Shown: positions 18,261 through 35,402 of the stretch, piece by piece
Position numbering within the stretch: the stretch's first letter is position 1
Layout: each line of letters starts with the position of its first letter
Assembly (NCBI RefSeq): GCF_016862995.1
Contig: NZ_BOOA01000062.1
Coordinates: 1 to 48,683 of the forward strand
DNA: 48,683 nt
Direction: 5' to 3'
Source of the DNA: Acrocarpospora phusangensis
GTDB taxonomy: Bacteria > Actinomycetota > Actinomycetes > Streptosporangiales > Streptosporangiaceae
Notes under the pieces: generated by a model
Databases searched by the model: none
Told to the model about the DNA's origin: nothing
Seen by the model: the letters and a program-made list of their open reading frames with translations, nothing else
Translations under genes and position numbers: made by a program

Positions 18261-18391
18261 AAAGATTGCTCACAGCGCTGTGAACTGGGCTTTCGTGGGG
18301 CGGCTGACGGCGCCGAGGAGAACAAGACTGTTTCTCGGCGGATCCTCGCGGCATGCTGACGGCCCGGATCGAGAGACGGGAGACGCCGGAA

Positions 18392-19729
18392 ATGACTGCC
18401 CTGCATCTGGCTGGGAACAACGCGCCGGTCACCGCGGAGGTGACGCTGGAGCCGGCCGAGGTGATCGGCGCCGTGCCCGAGGAACTGAACGGGGTGTATC
18501 TCCGCAACGGCCCCAATCCGCGTACCGGCTGGTCGCCGCACTACTTCGCAGGGGACGGCATGGTGCACGCGGTCGCCCTCGACGCCGGGCAGGCCCGCTG
18601 GTACCGCAACCGCTACGTACGGACTCCGCTGTTCGAGCACCCCGGCGAGTCGCGCATGGCCCTGGCGTTCGACCAGGCCACCGGCCAGGTGGACTACCGG
18701 GTCACCACGGCCAACACCCATCTGGTCGCGTACGCGGGACGGCTCCTGGCGCTGGAGGAGGGCGGGTTCCCCTACGAGATCACTCCGGAGCTGGAGACCG
18801 TGGGGCCGTACAGCTTCGGTGGTTCGTTGCGTACGCCCATGACGGCGCATCCGAAGGTCTGCCCCGGGACCGGTGAGCTGGTGTTCTTCGGGTATCGGTT
18901 GCGGCCGCCGTATCTGACCTACTATCGGGCGGCGCCGAGCGGGGAGCTGGTTCAGGAGCAGGTGGTGGAGGTGCCCCGGGCGACGATGATGCACGATTTC
19001 GCCATCACCGAGAACCATGCGATCTTCATGGATCTGCCGGTGGTGTTCGATCCGGCGGGGATCGCGGCCACGGGCATGCCGTGGCGGTGGGACGACGGGC
19101 ATGGCGCCCGGTTCGGGGTGATGCGCCGGGACGGTGGGCCGGTGCGGTGGTTCGAGGTGGAGCCGTGTTATGTGTGGCACACCATGAACGCGTCGGAGGC
19201 GGACGGCGTGATCACGGTGACCGGCTGCCGGGTGCCGACGCTGTGGCGCGACGGCGCGGACGACATCAGCGGCGGCCTGCCCAATCTGCACGAATGGCGG
19301 CTGAACCTGGCCACGGGCACGGTCGCCGAGCGGCCACTGGACGACATGCCGATCGAGTATCCGCGCGTCGCCGACGCCGAGGTGGGCCGGAATCACCGCT
19401 ACGGATATGTCACCAGTTTCTCGCTGGAGGCCGAACCGGAGCGCTCGGAGATCTACAAATACGATCTCGCGAAAGGCGCCGCCCGTGAGGTGCATCGGCT
19501 GCCGGACGGTCACACCTGTGGCGAAGCGGTCTTCGTCCCCCGGCGGGACTCGTCAGGCGACGATGACGGATATTTGATGACTTTCGCGCATGACCGTGCC
19601 CGCGGCACGGGTTACCTGGCGATCCTGGACGCCGCCGACCTGTCCGCCCGCCCGGTAGCGGAGATCCATTTGCCGGTACGCGTTCCGACGGGTTTCCACG
19701 GGAACTGGGTGCCAGACGCTCTCCGATAA
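18392..19729 (+). CDS. Carotenoid (apocarotenoid) cleavage oxygenase, RPE65/CCO family
   Basis: The four iron-binding His of the seven-bladed propeller are all visible: H153 (TAHPKVCP.TGEL), H201 (MMHDFAITENH), H263 (VWHTMNASEADG) and H436 (GFHGNWVPD). LNGVYLRNGPNPR near the N-terminus and HYFAGDGMVHAV are also family hallmarks. I favour the ATG at 18392 (445 residues, GGGAG upstream); an in-frame ATG at 18353 would add 13 residues. The enzyme would cleave a C=C bond of a carotenoid, apocarotenoid or stilbene-like substrate using non-heme iron. No carotenoid biosynthesis genes are nearby. Confidence 0.9.
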   Translation: MTALHLAGNNAPVTAEVTLEPAEVIGAVPEELNGVYLRNGPNPRTGWSPHYFAGDGMVHAVALDAGQARWYRNRYVRTPLFEHPGESRMALAFDQATGQVDYRVTTANTHLVAYAGRLLALEEGGFPYEITPELETVGPYSFGGSLRTPMTAHPKVCPGTGELVFFGYRLRPPYLTYYRAAPSGELVQEQVVEVPRATMMHDFAITENHAIFMDLPVVFDPAGIAATGMPWRWDDGHGARFGVMRRDGGPVRWFEVEPCYVWHTMNASEADGVITVTGCRVPTLWRDGADDISGGLPNLHEWRLNLATGTVAERPLDDMPIEYPRVADAEVGRNHRYGYVTSFSLEAEPERSEIYKYDLAKGAAREVHRLPDGHTCGEAVFVPRRDSSGDDDGYLMTFAHDRARGTGYLAILDAADLSARPVAEIHLPVRVPTGFHGNWVPDALR

Positions 19730-24259: not shown

Positions 24260-25060
24260 ATGGGCCGGTCCGCTGAGACGACCGAGAACGCGCCTCCGAC
24301 GGAGCAGACGGTCGGGTGCTACATCTACGGTGTCGTACCCGCGGAGGTGGACGTCGACGCCGAGACCCAGGGCGTGGGCGACCCGCCCGCTCAGGTCCGC
24401 CCGGTACGGCACGGCAAGATCGCCGCCCTGGTGAGCGACATCGACGTCGCCCGCCCGCTCGGAACGCCACAAGACCTTCTCGCCCACCAGCAACTCCTCG
24501 ACGCGGCCGCCGCCGAGGTGCCGGTACTCCCGATCCGGTTCGGCGCCGTGCTGGCGACGCCGGACGCGGTGGTCGAGGAGTTCCTGTCCCCGTACCACGA
24601 CGACTTCCTCGCCGCCCTCGTGGAACTGGAGGGCAGCGCCCAGTACGTGATCAAGGGTCGATACGTGGAGGAGGTGGTGCTAGCAGAGATCCTCGAAGAG
24701 AACCCCGAGGCCGCGAGCCTGCGCGAGGAGATTCGCGATATGCCCGAAGACGCCGCGCGAAACCACCGCATCCGGCTCGGCGAGATCATCAACGAATCGA
24801 TCACCGCCCAGCGGGAAGCGGACACGGCGACACTGCTGGAAAACGTCGAACCGGTCATCGTCATGTCGGCGGACCGCCCGCCATCGCACGAGCTGGACGC
24901 CGTCCACCTGGCCCTGCTCGTGGAGATCAGCCGGGAACGCGACCTGGAGCAGGCCGTGGAGGAGTTCGCCCGGCACCGAACCGATCGGATCAAGCTGCGC
25001 CTGCTCGGCCCGATGGCACCTTACGACTTCATCGTGTCCCAGGAGCAGGGCGCCGGCTGA
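24260..25060 (+). CDS. gvpF: Gas vesicle protein GvpF (GvpL/GvpF family)
   Basis: The 266-residue protein has the family's N-terminal domain (GCYIYGVVPAEV, HGKIAALVSDI, HQQLLDAAAAEVPVLPIRFG), the helix-rich centre (QYVIKGRYVEEVVLAEIL) and the C-terminal LRLLGPMAPYDFI motif. GvpF is a minor protein thought to bind GvpA early and help nucleate or deliver subunits. A second family member, gvpL, lies downstream. The stop overlaps the gvpG start by one base (TGATG). Confidence 0.9.
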   Translation: MGRSAETTENAPPTEQTVGCYIYGVVPAEVDVDAETQGVGDPPAQVRPVRHGKIAALVSDIDVARPLGTPQDLLAHQQLLDAAAAEVPVLPIRFGAVLATPDAVVEEFLSPYHDDFLAALVELEGSAQYVIKGRYVEEVVLAEILEENPEAASLREEIRDMPEDAARNHRIRLGEIINESITAQREADTATLLENVEPVIVMSADRPPSHELDAVHLALLVEISRERDLEQAVEEFARHRTDRIKLRLLGPMAPYDFIVSQEQGAG

Positions 25061-25323
25061 TGGGACTCCTCACCTCCATCCTCGGCGCGCCGCTGGCGCC
25101 CCTCAAAGGCGTGATCCGGCTCGGCGAACTCCTCCGCGACGAGGCGGAACGCCGAATGCACGACCCGGCGGTGGCCCGGCGCGAACTGGAGGAGATCGAC
25201 GCGGCGCGGGCCGCGGGCGAGATCTCCGAGGAGGAGGCCGACGAGGCCATGAACCTGGTCCTGCAAAGGATGACCGGCCAGCCTTCCGAGATGCCGGAGG
25301 GGAGGAGGCGGCCGGGGCCATGA
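25060..25323 (+). CDS. gvpG: Gas vesicle protein GvpG
   Basis: The 87-residue protein has MGLLTSILGAPLAPLKGVI, then a charged helix ELLRDEAERRMHDP and ELEEIDAARAAGEISEEEADEA, the usual GvpG pattern. GvpG is a small accessory protein needed for assembly in model systems. It is translationally coupled to gvpF. Confidence 0.88.
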   Translation: MGLLTSILGAPLAPLKGVIRLGELLRDEAERRMHDPAVARRELEEIDAARAAGEISEEEADEAMNLVLQRMTGQPSEMPEGRRRPGP

Positions 25324-25383
25324 GTCTGGTTCTGCGACGGATGACCGTTCTCGAGATGGAGGTGACGGAAAGGAGGTGGCCCC

Positions 25384-25710
25384 GTGGCTGTCAAGCGCAG
25401 GGTCGTACGTCTCGAAGGCGACAGGCCCGACAGGCCCGCCGGGCTGACAGCCGTGACCGCGAGTGAGGCGGGGCTGCGCCACATCGCCGGCCTGACCGGC
25501 AAGGAGATGGAGGGCGTCACCCTGGTGGAACCTGCGGACGACGGCTGGGTGGTCGTGGTCGAGGTCGTCGAGGATCGCCGCATTCCGTCCTCCGGCGACA
25601 TCCTGGCGCTGTACGAAGCCGACCTCGACCCGGAAGGCAACCTTCTCGCCTACCGGAGGAAGGGACGCTACCGGCGAGGCAGCAGCGGCAACCAGGGCGA
25701 GAGGCCATGA
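25384..25710 (+). CDS. gvpO: Gas vesicle protein GvpO
   Basis: The 108-residue protein starts at GTG after a near-perfect AAAGGAGGTGG site. It ends in the GvpO signature: DDGWVVVVEVVEDRRIPSS, then GDILALYEADLD..GNLLAYRRKGRYRRG. In haloarchaea GvpO is an essential minor protein. Here it sits between gvpG and gvpJ, whereas in the Streptomyces clusters I recall gvpO comes first. Confidence 0.85.
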   Translation: MAVKRRVVRLEGDRPDRPAGLTAVTASEAGLRHIAGLTGKEMEGVTLVEPADDGWVVVVEVVEDRRIPSSGDILALYEADLDPEGNLLAYRRKGRYRRGSSGNQGERP

Positions 25711-25711
25711 C

Positions 25712-26071
25712 ATGACGGAAGCCTCACGATTCGCGCCCGCGGTCCGGCAGACCTCGCCCGCCGTGGCAGGCCGCGAGCCCGCCAACCTCGGCGACATCCT
25801 GGAACGCGTACTCGACCGAGGCGTGGTGATCGCGGGGGACATCCGCGTGAACCTCCTCGACATCGAGCTGCTCACCATCAAGCTGCGCCTGGTGATCGCC
25901 TCGGTCGACACGGCCAAGGAGATGGGCATCGACTGGTGGGAGCACGACCCGTGGCTCACGGGGGACAACCGCGGCGTGCTGGAGGAGAACCGGCGGCTTC
26001 GCGCGCGGCTGTCCGCACTGGAGGAGCGGCTGCCCCTGGAGCCCCGACGATCGGAAGATGACCGTGAATGA
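25712..26071 (+). CDS. gvpJ: Gas vesicle protein GvpJ (GvpA family)
   Basis: The 119-residue protein has the GvpA-type core with GvpJ features: NLGDILERVLDRGVVIAGDI, RVNLLDIELLTIKLRLVIAS, then DTAKEMGIDWWEHDP and a coiled-coil-like end. The IDWW motif separates GvpJ from GvpA. It is a minor shell or tip protein. It overlaps gvpL by 14 bases. Confidence 0.88.
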   Translation: MTEASRFAPAVRQTSPAVAGREPANLGDILERVLDRGVVIAGDIRVNLLDIELLTIKLRLVIASVDTAKEMGIDWWEHDPWLTGDNRGVLEENRRLRARLSALEERLPLEPRRSEDDRE

Positions 26072-26849
26072 CACCGGGACCTACCTGTACGCGGTCAGTC
26101 ACGACACGGGCTCGCCCTGCCCCGAAGATCTGACCGGAGTCGCCGGGACGAACGTGCGCACCGTCGCGTACGCCGGACTCGTGGCCTATGTGAGCACCGT
26201 CCCCCTGGAACGCTTCGGCGCGGAACCCCTGCGACAGTCGATGGAGGACCTCGACTGGCTGGGCGAGACCGCCCGCGCCCACCATCACGTCGTGGAGGAG
26301 GTCGCGGCGAGCCGCCCCACCGCCCCGGTCCGGCTCGTCACCGTCTACCGAGGGGACGATCAGATCAGGGACCTCCTGAGCCAGCGGCACGACGACTTCA
26401 CGGAGGCGCTCGCCCGCGTCACAGGCCGGCAGGAATGGGGAGTGAAGGCCTATGTCGACCTGACGACGGCCACCCCCGCCGACCAGGAGGTGGCAGGAAC
26501 GGGCGGTCCCGGGGCGGCTTACCTCAGGCGGCGTCAGATGAGTCTGCGCGGGCGCGAGGAGGCCTGGCGCCAGGCCGCCGCACAAGCGGAAGAGATCCAC
26601 GACGCCCTCTCGTCCGTCGCCTGCGCGAGCCGTCGCCACCGCGCGCAGGACCCCGAGCTGTCGGGCCGCAAGGAGCTGATGATCCTCAACGGGGCCTACC
26701 TCGTCGAGCGCGACCGTCGCGAGGAGTTCGCCCACATGGTCGACAAGCTCCGGGGCCGGGGCGTCGACGTGGAACTCACCGGCCCCTGGGCGCCCTACTC
26801 CTTCACCGAACTCGCCGACGGGCAAGCGGAGATCCACGATGACGGTTGA
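26058..26849 (+). CDS. gvpL: Gas vesicle protein GvpL (GvpL/GvpF family)
   Basis: The 263-residue protein has TYLYAVSHD, AYAGLVAYVSTVPLERFG, TAPVRLVTVYRGDDQIRDLL and the C-terminal VELTGPWAPYSFTELADG, matching the family. It overlaps gvpJ by 14 and gvpS by 11 bases. Compared with GvpF, the central part (RRRQMSLRGREEAWRQA) is the GvpL-type variant. It is a likely interaction hub of minor Gvp proteins. Confidence 0.88.
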   Translation: MTVNDTGTYLYAVSHDTGSPCPEDLTGVAGTNVRTVAYAGLVAYVSTVPLERFGAEPLRQSMEDLDWLGETARAHHHVVEEVAASRPTAPVRLVTVYRGDDQIRDLLSQRHDDFTEALARVTGRQEWGVKAYVDLTTATPADQEVAGTGGPGAAYLRRRQMSLRGREEAWRQAAAQAEEIHDALSSVACASRRHRAQDPELSGRKELMILNGAYLVERDRREEFAHMVDKLRGRGVDVELTGPWAPYSFTELADGQAEIHDDG

Positions 26850-27063
26850 GAACCCGCGAGGAGCCGAACTCGCCAGGGAAGGCCGCCTTCCGTCCGAGCG
26901 GGTAGCCCTCGTGGACCTCCTGGACCGCTTGCTGGCCGGCGGCGTCGTCGTGAGCGGCGACCTGGTCCTCTCCATCGCCGACATCGATCTCGTACGGATC
27001 TCCATCCGCACCCTGATCACATCGGTACGCGAATGCGACACACACCAGGAGGTGAGATCGTGA
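26839..27063 (+). CDS. gvpS: Gas vesicle protein GvpS (GvpA family)
   Basis: The short 74-residue GvpA relative has VALVDLLDRLLAGGVVVSGDLVLSIADIDLVRISIRTLITSV. It lacks the GvpJ IDWW motif and the GvpA tail, as expected for GvpS. Start overlaps gvpL; the stop overlaps the gvpK start (GTGA). Confidence 0.82.
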   Translation: MTVENPRGAELAREGRLPSERVALVDLLDRLLAGGVVVSGDLVLSIADIDLVRISIRTLITSVRECDTHQEVRS

Positions 27064-27359
27064 CGGAACGACCGGCCCGAACGAGCAGACTACGCATCGA
27101 GACCGACGCCGAAGCCATGGAGCGCGATCTCTCCCGCCTGGTCCTCACCCTCATCGAACTCGTACGGCAACTGGTCGAGCGCCAGTGCGTACGCCGGATG
27201 GAGCAGGGAGACCTGTCGGACGAGCAGATCGAAGTGCTCGGCCTGACGCTGATGCGGCTGGAGGACGCGATGGCGGAGGTCTGCGACCGCTTCGGGCTGT
27301 CCCCCGCCGACCTCAATCTCGACCTCGGACCCCTCGGGACTCTCCTTCCCCAGGACTGA
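27060..27359 (+). CDS. gvpK: Gas vesicle protein GvpK
   Basis: I start at the GTG at 27060, which shares GTGA with the gvpS stop and has GGAGGTGAG just upstream; a frame from 27033 would overlap gvpS needlessly. The 99-residue helical protein has LRIETDAEAMERDLSRLVLT, ELVRQLVERQCVRRME, LSDEQIEVLGLTLMRLE and DLNLDLGPLGTLL, all GvpK hallmarks. It is the last gvp gene and runs 47 bases into the end of the converging minus-strand gene. Confidence 0.9.
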   Translation: MTERPARTSRLRIETDAEAMERDLSRLVLTLIELVRQLVERQCVRRMEQGDLSDEQIEVLGLTLMRLEDAMAEVCDRFGLSPADLNLDLGPLGTLLPQD

Positions 27360-29558: not shown

Positions 29559-30053
29559 TCATGCCAGATGCCACGGCAGCTCGACCGGCCGAGCCGGCTG
29601 GTTCCCCGGCAACAGGTACTCCAGCAACCCGGCCAAGCCCATCGGCACGACAAGCTCGGCTGCCGCCCGCAGCTCCGAAACAGTCCACCATTCGAACCGG
29701 TCGGTGACCCGGCGTTCCTCGTCGTCCATGCCGGAGGTATCCACCTCCAGCCCGCTGACGCGAAGGAAGAAGTACGAGTCCACCGACCTGTACGCCGTCT
29801 CCCGCAGCGACCACGTCCCCGAACTGACCGCGACCACCGGCCCGAGAGCTCCCGGGGCGACGGCATGGCCGAGCTCCTCTCGCAGTTCGCGCGCGGCGGC
29901 CTCCTGGAGGCTCTCGCCCTCATCGACGGCTCCCCCGGGAGTGAACCACGCGTAGAAAGGGTCCTCGATCTGAAGCAGCAGCCCCCGATAGACCAGGATC
30001 CGGTCGGAGTCGTCGGCCAGCAGTACGCGTGCGGTCGTCCGCAGGATGCTCAT
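29559..30053 (-). CDS. Nudix hydrolase
   Basis: The 164-residue enzyme (ATG at 30053) carries a complete Nudix box, GX5EX7REUXEEXGU: GGAVDEGESLQEAAARELREE and following LGH. TPGG before the box and WWTVSELR near the end are typical. It would hydrolyse a nucleoside diphosphate linked to another group, using Mg2+ bound by the REEL glutamates. A TACGAT box 7 nt upstream suggests a leaderless message; an extra upstream start (30086) would add 11 residues. It diverges from the RiPP locus. Confidence 0.85.
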   Translation of the reverse strand: MSILRTTARVLLADDSDRILVYRGLLLQIEDPFYAWFTPGGAVDEGESLQEAAARELREELGHAVAPGALGPVVAVSSGTWSLRETAYRSVDSYFFLRVSGLEVDTSGMDDEERRVTDRFEWWTVSELRAAAELVVPMGLAGLLEYLLPGNQPARPVELPWHLA

Positions 30054-30060
30054 GCGCAAG

Positions 30061-30066
30061 ATCGTA
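30061..30066 (-). promoter_or_regulatory. -10 box for leaderless Nudix transcript
   Basis: On the minus strand TACGAT is followed by seven bases and the ATG at 30053. Confidence 0.45.
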
Positions 30067-30072
30067 ACCCTA

Positions 30073-30085
30073 TGACCTGCGGTCA
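30073..30085. promoter_or_regulatory. Small inverted repeat between Nudix and RiPP genes
   Basis: TGACC-TGC-GGTCA forms a perfect 5-bp inverted repeat next to the Nudix -10 box and upstream of the RiPP precursor. A second hairpin, GCCGGAG/CTCCGGC (30166-30172 and 30180-30186), lies in the precursor leader. Both could be regulatory; neither is a known site. Confidence 0.3.
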
Positions 30086-30217
30086 CTAATTAATGCAATT
30101 GCTTTGTGCAAGACCCCTGCAAGGGACTCGCAAGTGAATCCGGTACCAAAGAGTCAGGAAGTGCGGCCGGAGAAACCGGCTCCGGCTCGTAACAGAGATT
30201 CGACCGAGGGAGAAGAA

Positions 30218-30364
30218 ATGTCGAACAAGTACGCCGTCGCGATTGAGGACCTGGCCGTCGAGGGTCCGGAGCTTTCCGACGAGCAGCTTCTCGCCGTCCG
30301 TGGTGGCCTGCGCCTGCGCGCCGGCTACAGCACCTGCACCCCGTGCGGCTACGACTGCGACTGA
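30218..30364 (+). CDS. RiPP precursor peptide with double-glycine leader
   Basis: The 48-residue peptide starts at an ATG behind GAGGGAGAAG. The leader (1-30) is acidic and helical, with LSDEQLLAVRGG at 19-30: the ELSDEQL..V.GG motif recognised by C39 peptidase exporters. The predicted core (31-48) is LRLRAGYSTCTPCGYDCD: possible donors S38, T39, T41; possible acceptors D46, D48; and three Cys in C-x2-C-x3-C order. It is followed by a hairpin and then by ATP-grasp, PpiC-related and exporter genes, so a crosslinked, cleaved and exported peptide is inferred. I know no described product with this core. Confidence 0.88.
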   Translation: MSNKYAVAIEDLAVEGPELSDEQLLAVRGGLRLRAGYSTCTPCGYDCD

Positions 30365-30504
30365 GCCTGGCACACCTGTTGGGACCGCGACTGAGCACGC
30401 CATCCCATCGGAATGACACGGACCCCGGGGGAACAGCGCCGATCGCATTTGCCGCGAAGAGCGCGTCAATAAACGACAGGTAAATGGTCGTTCTGGTGAG
30501 GATA

Positions 30505-30534
30505 CGGTGTGGGCGCGGGGCGCCCGCACCGTTT
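30505..30534 (+). terminator. Attenuator-like hairpin between the precursor and the ATP-grasp gene
   Basis: A 12-bp stem (30505-30516 with 30520-30531, one G-U pair) around a GGG loop is followed by a short, interrupted T-tract (TTTCTATT). It lies 140 bp after the precursor stop and 22 bp before the ATP-grasp start. Partial termination would give more precursor mRNA than enzyme mRNA. Confidence 0.7.
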
Positions 30535-30555
30535 CTATTGAAAAGGATTCTGAGC

Positions 30556-31536
30556 ATGATCCTGGTATTGAGCGGCGAGGACGACGTCCACGCCGACGCC
30601 GTCGAGGAGGAGCTGCGGCGGCTCGGTGCGCCGGTGGCCCGCTTCGACCCGGCGCGGTATCCGGCCGACGCCGACCTGTCGGTGCGGATCGACGCCTCCG
30701 GCCGGGTGAGCGGCCTGCTCCGTGACGGCGACCGCGAGATCATGCTCGACAGCATCGGCGCGGTGTGGCTGCGCCGCCCGGGTGCCCTGCGCGTGGCGGG
30801 GGCGCTGGCCGGGACGGACGCCGCGGACGCCGTCGAACGCGAGGCGGTGGCCTTCCTGGCCGACCTGTGGGAGTCGCTGGACGTGCCGTTCGTCCCCGCC
30901 TCCCCGGCGACGGTCGCGCGGGCGTCGCACAAGCTGCGCCAGCTCGCCCTCGCCGGCGATCTCGGCTTCGAAGTCCCGAGGACGCTCGTCACCAACGATC
31001 CGGACGCGTTCCTCGACCTCTACGACGACACCTCGGGACACATGATCACCAAGCGGGCGGTGCCGAGCCAGCGCCTGCGTACCGTCAACGGCCTGGAGAC
31101 CGCGCGCCACACGATCGCGGTCCGTCCCCGTGACCTCGTGGACGTCGAGTCCGTACGCCTCGGGCCGATCCTGGCGCAGCCGACCATCGGCAAACAGGTC
31201 GAACTGCGGGTGACGGTCGTCGGCGACGAGGTGTTCTGCGGGGCCATCCACTCGCAGGAGACCCACCACACCCGGCAGGACTTCCGCCGGTACGACGAGG
31301 CGCACACCCGGATCACGCAGCATCCGCTGCCCGCCGCGGTGCGGGACCTGTGCGTCGCGATCACGCAGGCGCTCGGCCTGCGCTACTCCGCGATCGACCT
31401 GATCGTCACGCCCGACGGTCGCATCGTGTTCTTGGAGATCAACCCGAACGGTCAGTATCTGTGGATCGAGCAGGAGACAGGGTTCCCGATCAGCCGCGCG
31501 CTGGCGGAGCTGCTGGTGAAGGTGAGCGGATCATGA
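30556..31536 (+). CDS. ATP-grasp peptide ligase (RiPP maturase)
   Basis: I start at the ATG at 30556 (326 residues), preceded by AAAAGGA; a frame from 30484 runs through the attenuator and is unlikely. The enzyme matches MvdD-like/graspetide-type ATP-grasp ligases: N-terminal ILVLSGEDDVHADAVEEEL, ASHKLRQLALAGDLGFEVPRTLVTN, a central nucleotide-binding part (MITKRAVPSQRLR, IGKQVELRVTVVGDEVF) and the Mg-ATP motif FLEINPNGQYLWIE at the end. It would activate an Asp/Glu side chain of the core and join it to Ser/Thr (ester) or Lys (amide). Downstream gene shares ATGA. Confidence 0.87.
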   Translation: MILVLSGEDDVHADAVEEELRRLGAPVARFDPARYPADADLSVRIDASGRVSGLLRDGDREIMLDSIGAVWLRRPGALRVAGALAGTDAADAVEREAVAFLADLWESLDVPFVPASPATVARASHKLRQLALAGDLGFEVPRTLVTNDPDAFLDLYDDTSGHMITKRAVPSQRLRTVNGLETARHTIAVRPRDLVDVESVRLGPILAQPTIGKQVELRVTVVGDEVFCGAIHSQETHHTRQDFRRYDEAHTRITQHPLPAAVRDLCVAITQALGLRYSAIDLIVTPDGRIVFLEINPNGQYLWIEQETGFPISRALAELLVKVSGS

Positions 31537-32543
31537 CGGAGTTGCCCGAGGTCGTGTCCGCCGCGACGCGCATCCTGACCGAACTGAGCGAGAGCCGGGT
31601 GACGCCCGCCGACGCCGAACGGGAACTCGCCGCCGTCGCGGCGAAGGGGGGCCTGCGGGTCCGGCTGCTGGCGGACGAGGAGGCGTACGACGGGTCCGTA
31701 CACCGGAATCTGATCGTGCGCGGGCCCGGCCGGCCGACCGTGTCGCTGTCGGTGGCGTCGGGTCCCGGGCTGCCGTGGGCGCTGCGCGGGGTCGTCGCCC
31801 CCCACGAGTACGACCTGGTCGAGGTCAACGGCCAGATCGTCGCCGTGGACGAGGCGATGGCCTGCCTCGACGGCCTCTTCGACGACGTACGGCTCATGCG
31901 GGGCCTCATCGACGCCAGCCTCGTCGCCCAGGCCCTCGACGAGTACGACCTGGAGGTGTCGCCGCACGACCTCCAGGAGGCGATGGACGCGTACCGCAGG
32001 GCCCGCCGCCTCTACTCCGCGGAAGCCACCGACGCGTGGATGCGCGACAACGGGTTCACCCCCGCCCTGCTGGCCAAGCACGTCGAACAGCTGGCCGGGG
32101 TCGCGCTGCTCCGCCGCCACGTGGTCGGCGGCGAGGTGGACGCGTGGTTCGCCGAGCACCACGCCGAACTGGACGTGATCGTGGCGGCGTGGGCCACCGA
32201 CGGGGAGCGGCTGCGGGCCGATCCGCTGGCCGCCGTCGCGGAGTCCTGGCGGGCCGGGGACGCCGCCGGTCTCCGTGAGTGGCGGGTGGACGAGCTGCCG
32301 GTCGGATTCTGCAGGCTCGCCGGAGCCGCGGTGGGCGAGGTGGTTCCCGTGGGATTCGACGGCGTCTCCGCCGACGCGGTCGTCGTGGACCGCCGCCCGG
32401 CGGAGCGGGACGCGCGGACCCTGGCCCTGGTCGAGCGCCGCCTCTTCGACCGGTGGCTCGCCGACCGCCGGGCGGCGGCGCGGGTGACCTGGTTCTGGGG
32501 TGACCGCAGACGGACGGATCGGGTGTTCGATGCGTACCAGTGA
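31533..32543 (+). CDS. SurA/PpiC-related peptide maturation protein
   Basis: The 336-residue protein is coupled to the ATP-grasp gene (ATGA at 31533-31536). The N-terminal third is unfamiliar; it ends in VEVNGQIVAVDEAMACL. The middle (about 120-210) has helices like the SurA/trigger-factor N-domain: AQALDEYDLEVSPHDLQEAM, FRRARRLYS-like RRARRLYSAEATDAWM and LLAKHVEQLAGVALL. The C-terminal part (LPVGFCRLAGAAVGEVVPVG...) resembles a degraded PpiC rotamase domain. This agrees with what I recall of a PpiC-related putative peptide-maturation family in RiPP loci (TIGR04500-type). It may present the precursor or isomerise X-Pro, notably T41-P42 in the core. The role is inferred. Confidence 0.65.
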   Translation: MTELPEVVSAATRILTELSESRVTPADAERELAAVAAKGGLRVRLLADEEAYDGSVHRNLIVRGPGRPTVSLSVASGPGLPWALRGVVAPHEYDLVEVNGQIVAVDEAMACLDGLFDDVRLMRGLIDASLVAQALDEYDLEVSPHDLQEAMDAYRRARRLYSAEATDAWMRDNGFTPALLAKHVEQLAGVALLRRHVVGGEVDAWFAEHHAELDVIVAAWATDGERLRADPLAAVAESWRAGDAAGLREWRVDELPVGFCRLAGAAVGEVVPVGFDGVSADAVVVDRRPAERDARTLALVERRLFDRWLADRRAAARVTWFWGDRRRTDRVFDAYQ

Positions 32544-34728
32544 CCGGCCCAGGCGGGCGCCCGTCGTGCTGCAGTCGACCCGGTTCGACTGCGGCCCCGC
32601 CTGCCTGGCCTCCGTGCTCGCGGCCTTCGGCCGTCCGGTGCCGATCGCCGACATCCGTGAGTCCCTCGATCCCGGCCGGGACGGCATCAGCGCCCTGGAA
32701 CTGCGGGACGAGGCCCGCCGCCACGGCCTGGACTGCCGGGGCCGCCAGCTCGAACCGAACGCCGAGGCCCTGGCCCGCCTGCCGTTGCCGTTCGTCGCCC
32801 ACTGGGAATCCGACCACTACGTCGTGGTGACCCGGGTACGGAACGACGGGGTCGAACTGATGGATCCCGCCATCGGGCGCCGGCGGCTCGACCACGCCGA
32901 GTTCCTGAGCAGCACGACGGGGATCGTGCTGACCTTCGGCATCGCGGACCGTCCCGCGCCCCGCCCGGCCGCCCCCTCGGTGCTGCGGTCGATCATCGTC
33001 CCGGCCGTGCTGGCCAATCGGGGGGCGTTGACGCTGCTGCTGCTCACGTCGCTGCTTCTGTTGGTGGCGGGGCTCGCCGTACCGGTGCTGACCGCGCAGG
33101 CGGTCGACGCGTTCGTGGGCGGGGGCGGGCTCAGCTGGCTGATCGCGCCCGTCGTCGGGTTGTTCGTGGCGGCAGGGGTGTTCGAGCTGGCGCGAGGGAT
33201 GGCGGCGGCGTCGATGCAGTACCGCATCGGCGGGCGGCTGAACACGGCGTTTCTCGATCGGTTCCTCGCCGCGCCCCTGCAGTTCGTCGAACGACGGGGG
33301 CCGGGCGAGCTGATCTCCCGGATCATGGCCGCCGACGTGCTGCGGGACGCGCTCGCGACGCGGCTCGTGGGCGCCCTGCTGGACGCCGTGGTCGGCGTCG
33401 TCTACCTCGTCATCGTCCTGGTGGCGGCGCCGCTGCTCGGGATGGTGACGCTCGCGCTCGGTGTGGCGCAGCTGGTCGCCCTCGGCGCGCTCGCGGTGCG
33501 GGGCCGCCGGCTCCGCCGGGAGGAGCTGCTGGCCGACGCCCGGTCCAACAGCTGGCTGATGGAGGTCGCGAACGGCCTGGCCTGGGTCAAGGGGGCCGGC
33601 GCGGAGCACATCGTCGGGGCGAAGGCGATCCAGCTGCACGCCCGCAGGCTCGCCGCGCTGCACAAGGCGGCACGGAACGGAGCCGTCGCCGAAGCGGCCG
33701 CGTCCGCGGTCAGGATCGGCGGGCCGCTGGTCCTGCTCATCACCGCGGGGTCCAGCGCCTCGACGGAGAGCCCGGGCCGGATCGTCGCGCTGGCCGCGCT
33801 CGCGGCGGCCGCCCTGGGGCCGCTCGGCGCGATCGCCACCCATCTGCGGGAGTTCTACGAGATCGGATCCGTCCTCGACCACCTCCAGGATCTCGCGGAA
33901 GCGCCGGTCGAGTCGCCGCAGGGCAAGAGCGCGGTCGAGCGGTTACGCGGGGAGGTCACCGTCCGCGGGCTCAGCTTCCGGCACACCCACCGCGACCCCT
34001 GGACGGTCGACGACCTGTCGTTCCACGTGCCGCCGGGAACCAAGCTGGCCATCGTGGGCCCGTCCGGTTCCGGCAAGAGCACCCTGGCCAAACTGCTGGT
34101 CGGCCTCTACAAACCGACCCAGGGCTCCGTCTCCGTCGACGGCACCGACATCGCCGCCCTTGATCTCCCCTCCGTACGGCGGCTCATGGGCGTCGTCTGG
34201 CAGGACCCGCTCCTGTTCTCCGGCACCGTCCAGGAGAACATCACCCTCCGCGTCCCCGACGCCACACCCGAAGCCGTACGGGAAGCGGCTCGCCTGGCGG
34301 GCATCGACACGGACATCGCCGCCATGCCGATGGGCTACGAGACCATCCTCGGACCCTCCGGCGACGGCCTCTCCGGAGGCCAGCGGCAGCGGCTCGCGCT
34401 CGCGCGGGCCCTGGTAGGCCGCCCGGCCGTCCTCCTGCTGGACGAGGCGACCTCACACCTGGACACCCCCACGGAAGCCCTCGTCGAACGCAATCTGCGC
34501 GCCACGGGCGTGACCCGGATCGTCATCGCCCACCGCCTCTCCACCGTGCGGGACGCCGATCTCATCCTGGTCATGTCCGAAGGCTGCGTGATCGAGCACG
34601 GCACCCATCAGGACCTGATCGACTACGGCGGGGCGTACGCGCGAATGGTCGGCATGCAGCAGGTCACGACATCCGAAATCGTGACCGACCGGACCGTGCC
34701 GATGCGGCGCCCGGCCCGCCGGACCTGA
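32530..34728 (+). CDS. C39-peptidase-containing ABC exporter (PCAT) of the RiPP
   Basis: I use the ATG at 32530 (732 residues), 14 bases inside the previous gene. The N-terminal C39 peptidase has C21 in RFDCGPACLASVL, H96 in SDHYVVV and D112 in MDPAIG, the full papain-like triad. Next come about six membrane helices (about 155-440), then an ATPase domain: Walker A GPSGSGKS (510-517), signature LSGGQRQRLALARAL, Walker B VLLLDEATSHLD and the switch His in IAHRLS. Such exporters cut the leader after Gly-Gly and pump out the core, matching the AVRGG site in the precursor. Confidence 0.93.
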   Translation: MRTSDRPRRAPVVLQSTRFDCGPACLASVLAAFGRPVPIADIRESLDPGRDGISALELRDEARRHGLDCRGRQLEPNAEALARLPLPFVAHWESDHYVVVTRVRNDGVELMDPAIGRRRLDHAEFLSSTTGIVLTFGIADRPAPRPAAPSVLRSIIVPAVLANRGALTLLLLTSLLLLVAGLAVPVLTAQAVDAFVGGGGLSWLIAPVVGLFVAAGVFELARGMAAASMQYRIGGRLNTAFLDRFLAAPLQFVERRGPGELISRIMAADVLRDALATRLVGALLDAVVGVVYLVIVLVAAPLLGMVTLALGVAQLVALGALAVRGRRLRREELLADARSNSWLMEVANGLAWVKGAGAEHIVGAKAIQLHARRLAALHKAARNGAVAEAAASAVRIGGPLVLLITAGSSASTESPGRIVALAALAAAALGPLGAIATHLREFYEIGSVLDHLQDLAEAPVESPQGKSAVERLRGEVTVRGLSFRHTHRDPWTVDDLSFHVPPGTKLAIVGPSGSGKSTLAKLLVGLYKPTQGSVSVDGTDIAALDLPSVRRLMGVVWQDPLLFSGTVQENITLRVPDATPEAVREAARLAGIDTDIAAMPMGYETILGPSGDGLSGGQRQRLALARALVGRPAVLLLDEATSHLDTPTEALVERNLRATGVTRIVIAHRLSTVRDADLILVMSEGCVIEHGTHQDLIDYGGAYARMVGMQQVTTSEIVTDRTVPMRRPARRT

Positions 34729-34754
34729 TCAGGCGAGCCGGGCGAAGTCCAGCC

Positions 34755-35402
34755 TTACAGGGTGCCGTTCTCGATCGCGGCCTTGAGGCCGGCCTGCGTG
34801 GCCTGGTGGGAGGCGACGCCGTTGGTGACGGTGAAGTCGATGAGGAGGATGCTCGCCTCGAACGTGAGGTGCTCGGTCACGCGGGTGACGGAGCCGCCCA
34901 GGTCGGTGAAGACGATCTTCTGGTGGGTCACCACGTTCGGCAGGGTCCAGGTGTCGGTCTCGTAGAAGAACTCGTCGCGGTGGATGCGCTGCTGGGCGTG
35001 GGTCCTGCTGCTGATGGGGATGCCCGCCACGACGGGGATGTCCTCGATCGCCGTGAAGTTGACGAACCGCACGTCGTCCTCGGTCCAGTCGGCGTGGGTG
35101 ACGACTCGTTTGAGGAACGAGTGCATGCCGATGTGGTTGTTGACGTTGGAGTACGCGTCGAAGACGTGGGCGATGGGGGCGTTGATGTCGATGGAGATGT
35201 CCTGGCTGACCTGGCTTCTGCCGGTCCAGGGCAGCGGGGCGGTCAACTTCTCGTAGAAGCGGTAGGTGTCCCACGCCAGCTGCCACGACGCCGCCAGCTG
35301 GGCGTCCGTCTCGGCACGGGCGGGAGCGGATAAACCGGTCAGGAGCAGGGCCGTCGCGACGAACGGGACCGTGAGGAATCGCAGGAGCTTCTTCACATGC
35401 AC
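34755..35402 (-). CDS. Secreted SRPBCC (START-like) protein
   Basis: The 215-residue protein has a signal peptide (MHVKKLLRFLTVPFVATALLL..., cut near ARA-E) and an SRPBCC domain from about 65: DISIDINAPIAHVFDAYSNVNNHIGMHSF, RFVNFTAIEDIPVVAGI, HQKIVFTDLGGSVTRVTEHL and a C-terminal helix (ATQAGLKAAIEN). Exported SRPBCC proteins are unusual, since most are cytoplasmic. The ligand is unknown. The gene converges on the exporter gene across 26 bp, without a visible terminator. Confidence 0.75.
   Translation of the reverse strand: MHVKKLLRFLTVPFVATALLLTGLSAPARAETDAQLAASWQLAWDTYRFYEKLTAPLPWTGRSQVSQDISIDINAPIAHVFDAYSNVNNHIGMHSFLKRVVTHADWTEDDVRFVNFTAIEDIPVVAGIPISSRTHAQQRIHRDEFFYETDTWTLPNVVTHQKIVFTDLGGSVTRVTEHLTFEASILLIDFTVTNGVASHQATQAGLKAAIENGTL

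Follow-up and report, generated by a model that had tools for sequence, protein, structure and literature searches.

The closest described system to the locus considered here is mirABCD of Micromonospora rosaria, whose product, rosaritide, belongs to graspetide group 21, a group defined by a ligase sequence-similarity cluster at an alignment score of 70 (Carter et al. 2026, PMC13097080). Its genes encode, in this order, a precursor, an ATP-grasp ligase (TIGR04187), a TIGR04500 protein, and a TIGR03796 exporter. The ligase MirB alone produced no mass change; its TIGR04500 partner MirC is obligatory and copurifies with it, and apart from MirB and CorB the characterized graspetide synthetases are reported to be partner independent. 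Rosaritide carries three lactones (S8-D22, S9-D26, and T11-D24) on a core of about 27 residues, a length suggested by the 24 spin systems and the removal of three further residues, and a truncated form did not inhibit the growth of four bacteria (PMC13097080). TIGR04500 had been named in 2022 among proteins near ATP-grasp genes (PMC8939145). Here we describe a four-gene cassette at positions 30218 to 34728 of a 48,683-nucleotide stretch of the Acrocarpospora phusangensis genome (contig NZ_BOOA01000062.1, forward strand; referred to as the window). The cassette is real, intact, and rosaritide-like: the system itself is already described, and the short, cysteine-rich core is a new variant of it. 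The cassette contains the following features.

30218..30364, + strand: precursor peptide gene, 48 amino acids (aa) (leader 30218-30307, core 30308-30361, stop 30362-30364); open reading frame (ORF) and translation, with a homologous precursor in locus L062
30504..30532, + strand: terminator-like hairpin in the precursor/ATP-grasp gap, perhaps a partial terminator; 13-pair stem, putative function
30556..31536, + strand: ATP-grasp ligase of the graspetide synthetase type, 326 aa; TIGR04187 match, D242-F-R244, and other invariant residues
31533..32543, + strand: TIGR04500 PpiC-related partner protein, 336 aa; TIGR04500 score above the cut-off, family profile matching SurA in PDB
32530..34728, + strand: C39 peptidase-containing ATP-binding cassette (ABC) exporter, 732 aa; Pfam Peptidase_C39, ABC_membrane, and ABC_tran above gathering scores

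A preliminary description of this DNA had proposed a double-glycine precursor, an ATP-grasp ligase, a PpiC-related protein, and a C39 exporter, and all four were located as it said. The sequence likewise supports a graspetide-type cassette for a ribosomally synthesized and posttranslationally modified peptide (RiPP), with an 18-residue core after Gly-Gly and a C39-domain exporter. The same description had called the combination unlike characterized graspetides, a view that has to be given up, since the rosaritide genes belong to these very families, arranged alike, and the partner was demonstrated there to be necessary; because it was described for rosaritide, the four-gene architecture is not new (PMC13097080). 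The Cys-rich core is unlike that of rosaritide, so the product may differ. Three genes had also been described as coupled, which is true of the three enzyme genes (the ATP-grasp and PpiC-related genes overlap by ATGA, and the PpiC-related and exporter genes overlap by 14 bases, with an alternative in-frame GTG start at 32500 adding 10 aa to the exporter), whereas the precursor gene is set apart by 191 bases that contain the hairpin. The fold of positions 30480-30555 was more stable than those of 200 of 200 shuffled sequences; a terminator scan returned one site against a shuffle mean of 1.0 and by itself carries little weight for this hairpin. A hairpin fold was likewise obtained for the corresponding gap in L062, where 45 of 200 shuffles folded equally well, however. 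An Rfam search of positions 29800-35000 returned 0 matches.

The best NCBIfam matches of the three enzymes are TIGR04187, TIGR04500, and TIGR03796, side by side with the precursor, which is the neighborhood of group 21, and this identity of families and order with mirABCD was counted in favor of a rosaritide-type reading. The ligase scored 240.7 bits on TIGR04187, under the cut-off of 350; two rosaritide-type ligases (L035 and L066) scored 236.2 and 246 bits, likewise under it, and the level score also counted for that reading. Similarity extended over the full length to graspetide synthetases whose structures have been determined, 5ig8, 5ig9, 7m4s, 9bou, 7mgv, and 7drm (best E value, 4.8e-44). 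In an alignment of 17 ligases (A3), of which 15 beyond L062 were 35 to 51% identical to that of the window, the D-x-R motif was present and D242, R244, K126, K166, E216, R218, D281, E294, and N296 were invariant; these are presumably the expected active-site residues. The exporter scored 104.7 bits on Pfam Peptidase_C39 and 488.6 bits on TIGR03796 (cut-off, 853.3), and its ATPase motifs were located together with Cys21, His96, and Asp112, which we take to be the C39 catalytic residues. The leader motif LSDEQLLAVRGG, ending in GG, thus shares the cassette with a C39 domain bearing putative catalytic residues. A PADLOC defence-system search gave no match for the ligase or the partner; a mad3/mad8 match over part of the exporter ATPase was read as general ABC similarity, and a role as a defence part was set aside.

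The partner protein scored 234 bits on TIGR04500 (cut-off, 180), had no match in Pfam, and contains no recognizable peptidyl-prolyl isomerase (PPIase) domain. A profile (A2) built from 25 of the partners found matched SurA in PDB at 2.5e-6 over positions 119-324, and SurA_N_3 matched 5 of these 25 relatives at an E value of 0.1 or better; the partner sequence used alone as a query against PDB yielded two weak, unrelated matches. The partner of Streptosporangiaceae bacterium NEAU-GS5 (L062) is extended at its C terminus by about 80 residues (L062:6018-6263), a repetitive stretch rich in Ala, Thr, and Asp that is absent from the window partner.

The 48-aa precursor consists of the leader MSNKYAVAIEDLAVEGPELSDEQLLAVRGG followed, after Gly-Gly, by the 18-aa core LRLRAGYSTCTPCGYDCD. 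It matched TIGR04497 ("putative ATP-grasp target RiPP") weakly (16.7 bits; cut-off, 32); a match to a radical-SAM target family (TIGR04149; E value, 0.05) was rejected, as no radical-SAM gene is among the four. The core holds three cysteines (C10, C13, and C17), putative donors S8, T9, and T11, and putative acceptors D16 and D18, the only two side-chain carboxylates, the third Asp being absent. It thus resembles rosaritide in its Gly-Gly cleavage site, in its donor block (an adjacent S/T pair, x, T), and in an Asp-x-Asp near the C-terminal end, and differs in having 18 residues rather than about 27 or 28, two acceptor Asp residues rather than three, and three Cys. In place of the full rosaritide ring set of three donors and three acceptors, S8, T9, and T11 face only D16 and D18; as the third acceptor is absent, we file the window as rosaritide-like and not as a rosaritide. 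The linked positions of rosaritide (9-26 and 11-24) each sum to 35; for the window, 9-18 and 11-16 each sum to 27, as do the positions of cysteines 10 and 17. The antiparallel register of S9-D26 and T11-D24, applied by analogy, would pair T9 with D18 and T11 with D16 and place C10 opposite C17. The computed [M+H]+ values of the core are 1993.86 (linear, reduced), 1957.84 (two lactones), and 1955.82 (two lactones plus a disulfide).

NEAU-GS5 (L062) has a counterpart of the precursor and of each of the three enzymes, with the gene order conserved and identities to the window of 74% (partner), 74.5% (ligase), and 74% (exporter), a 48-aa precursor, and STCxxC in the core. The L062 core, IFGQNASTCNRCTDNDMD, differs in its tail (TDNDMD), three Asp, two Cys, and the lack of a T11 equivalent, and the flanking genes are different. 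Among ORFs of at least 80 aa at window positions 20001-45000, matches to L062 (E value, 1e-5) fell only within the three enzyme genes, including antisense and shifted frames. Pairwise ratios of nonsynonymous to synonymous substitution (dN/dS; NG86 method, with L062 as the single relative) were 0.31 for the ligase, 0.27 for the partner, and 0.27 for the exporter. In a tree of 103 ligases, built after exclusion of duplicates and of fragments shorter than 220 aa, the window and L062 paired at 100/100 and were sister to L035, L066, and L068 at 99/96, a position that we counted for the rosaritide-type reading. L035 and L066 share an identical 28-residue core, LPRNGAGSSKTIDDIPGGGRPDTDTDFD, which is a further point for that reading: of the 14 core positions that PMC13097080 names for rosaritide, 13 carry the same residue, the exception being Thr for Ser at position 25.

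Cores were called by leader pattern and not by annotation, so that precursors with other leaders were missed; 78 of the 103 ligase loci gave a core. The cores of L035, L066, and L068 were added by eye, a long doubtful core (L117) was removed, and 75 distinct cores resulted, with L149 and L150 kept outside this set. Cysteine is enriched in the cores (55 of 1,649 residues, compared with 2 of 2,454 in the last 30 leader residues): 36 cores have none, 24 have one, 14 have two, and one, that of the window, has three, giving 39 with at least one. The pattern [ST][ST]x[ST]...DxD, chosen after the cores had been viewed, occurs in 3 of the 75, namely, that of the window and two of the rosaritide type, and in 10 of 20,000 shuffles of the window core; CxxC occurs in two, those of the window and L062. 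We counted the pattern, the register arithmetic, and the Cys enrichment toward the favored reading. A literature search, which had little reach into subscription journals, found no report of a Cys-bearing rosaritide relative.

Several other Cys-bearing cores were observed. On plasmid pHAU01 of Herpetosiphon aurantiacus (Chloroflexota), an unannotated precursor-like ORF (L150:3777-3934) ends in CTCTPWGGIDVD and precedes an ATP-grasp protein (46.6% identical) and a TIGR04500-like protein (phmmer, 3.9e-34). Its core is the closest to that of the window among 76 others, with 13 of 5,000 shuffles equaling it, a modest result after 76 comparisons, and its ligase lies on a long branch outside the window-rosaritide group. 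Two-Cys cores such as VRAEMKPGSGYACSSAASGQDCKNT belong to loci whose ligases branch far away in the tree (L114, L118, L121, L122, L123, and L128) and perhaps represent a separate origin of Cys-bearing graspetides. Near-identical AKSQVIVIHGGHSHTSGDSN-type cores were found in 11 loci (L003 to L011, L015, and L016), with His at core position 9 except in L004 and L005, which have Cys there; this exchange might resemble alternating metal ligands.

From sequence and by analogy to mirABCD, the four genes very probably make and export a small ring-closed peptide, and we consider it probable, if by no means secure, that they form a graspetide cassette of the rosaritide type, in which the ligase depends on its partner and the core is rich in cysteine. 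It is highly likely that the ATP-grasp and TIGR04500 proteins would act as a complex, like MirB and MirC, with the partner chaperoning the ligase, presenting the peptide, or both. This complex would phosphorylate the Asp side chains and, with about an even chance in our estimate, close two nested macrolactones, T9-D18 and T11-D16, in the rosaritide register. The third rosaritide lactone, the crossing link S8-D22, lacks an acceptor in the window, where Gly14 stands at that place, and a Cys-based link may replace it, most simply a C10-C17 disulfide between the two lactones, or else C10-C13; any native disulfide is a tentative proposal drawn from sequence and analogy. The exporter would, as we expect with considerable confidence, cleave after Gly30 and secrete the 18-mer.

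A number of observations weigh against this account. One is that the third rosaritide acceptor is missing. In the two nearest relatives the core pattern is not maintained: the L062 core has Asn for T11, Met for C17, and three Asp, with the donor pattern lost, and the L149 core, TYGPCSSTRGLDDWDSHPL, has one Cys in a different layout and lacks the donor pattern. Neither the rosaritide-type core nor the L149 core aligned with that of the window any better than shuffled sequences did (3,923 and 2,469 of 5,000 as good, respectively). When L149 and L150 were added to 32 of the 103 ligases in a second tree, the grouping was retained at 94/92, which is not firm. Weak Rotamase_2 (Pfam) matches in 9 of the 25 partner relatives (E value, 0.1 or better) may leave room for isomerase activity in the family. 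An AlphaFold2 model of the partner, built from two sequences, was poor (mean predicted local distance difference test [pLDDT] score, 46.3) and was not used.

A serious rival holds that the product has lactones only, its cysteines being reduced, randomly oxidized, or metal binding after export; we give this a substantial chance, short of even. C13 and C17 are not both kept in L062, L149 has a single Cys, the four-gene cassette lacks a thiol-oxidoreductase gene, and in a related core set one position holds either His or Cys (Cys in 2 of the 11 loci), an exchange that metal ligands might show. Against this, CxxC is common to the window and L062 although most other core residues differ, cysteine is far commoner in cores than in leaders, and an extracellular three-Cys peptide is expected to oxidize. 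Cysteine might instead serve as a graspetide donor, with one or more Asp-Cys thioesters replacing or adding to lactones. Thioester formation by graspetide synthetases is reported for nonnative Cys introduced by substitution (PMC13097080 and PMC12291112), related cores carry either Ser or Cys at one and the same position (TGCY or SGCY in L036, L058, and L097; TGSY in L050), and the Herpetosiphon core has Cys at the place of S8. We nevertheless regard a thioester as improbable: the core has two side-chain carboxylates only, three Ser/Thr donors already occupy the rosaritide places, and the rosaritide counterparts of C10 and C17 in the alignment, positions 10 and 25, are nondonors, the S25A variant still giving three dehydrations (PMC13097080). 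A limited literature search found no native thioester graspetide.

That the partner is a working PPIase acting on core Pro12 is suggested by the family name, by the Rotamase_2 matches, and by the one Pro of the core, within TPCG. We consider it very unlikely, given that the window partner has no Pfam match at all, that L062 and L149 differ, the L062 core having no Pro, and that the C-domain of MirC lacks similarity to PPIase domains while both MirC domains are required for ring closure (PMC13097080). We think it equally unlikely that the genes are silent or in decay: the core lacks one rosaritide acceptor, and no sigma-70-like promoter, the only promoter type scanned for, was found within positions 29900-35000, but none of the four reading frames is interrupted, motif residues are retained, and the dN/dS values of about 0.3 argue against decay of the three enzymes.

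TIGR04500-partnered clusters are common in this order. Matches to TIGR04500 were found in 83 of 249 sampled genomes of the order of the window, 63 of them exceeding the cut-off, and in 9 of 200 genomes of the family to which G338 belongs, 2 of them exceeding it, and at an E value of 1e-20 or better in 2 of 396 phylum genomes, that of the window and G338. With the window partner as the query, 14 of 394 class genomes matched at 1e-10 or better, and 3 of 341 family genomes did so at 1e-47 or better, namely, its own, G172 (74%), and G1209 (55%); G172 and L062 carry the same precursor. Ligase relatives occur in three of five genomes of the genus, its own included, with the best other at 46%. In a survey set of 72 loci, which partly overlaps the earlier loci, an ATP-grasp gene beside the partner was clear in 57, marginal in 1, and absent in 14. 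The clusters behind the 75 cores resemble the window in the adjacency of ligase and partner and in a Gly-Gly leader of the form xELxExxLxxVxGG and differ in their core patterns. Two different precursors stand ahead of one ATP-grasp and partner pair in L017, L023, L026, L050, L051, L058, L080, L095, L097, L103, and L107. A second type of TIGR04500-like gene occurs without an ATP-grasp gene, at L143:78-872 (contig C167 of the same genome as the window) and in L098, L102, L105, L106, L111, and L115, and the family's relatives are therefore not restricted to RiPP clusters; their neighbors look like 2-oxo-acid dehydrogenase subunits, which we presume from an E2-like start, MLREFRLPDVGEGLTEAEIVKW or near.

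Elsewhere, the window encodes gas vesicle proteins at 24260-27359 (two GvpL/GvpF, at 24260-25060 and 26058-26849, and GvpK, at 27033-27359) and a carotenoid-oxygenase-type protein at 18353-19729 (Pfam RPE65, 412.7 bits). No viral contigs were found.

TIGR04500-partnered clusters are thus frequent and very varied in the order to which the window belongs, and its core would amount to a test of a partner-dependent graspetide synthetase on a substrate that lacks one acceptor and has gained cysteines. We put forward, with some reserve, the proposal that the mature peptide natively joins ATP-grasp lactones with a Cys crosslink, either a thioester or a disulfide placed between two lactones, that the third rosaritide ring has thereby been exchanged for another chemistry, and that this would be one of several such exchanges in the large and hardly studied set of TIGR04500-partnered graspetides of the Streptosporangiaceae. 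Its role as a secreted competition or signaling peptide is a guess. If the proposal is true, ester and disulfide links would occur together in one small natural peptide.

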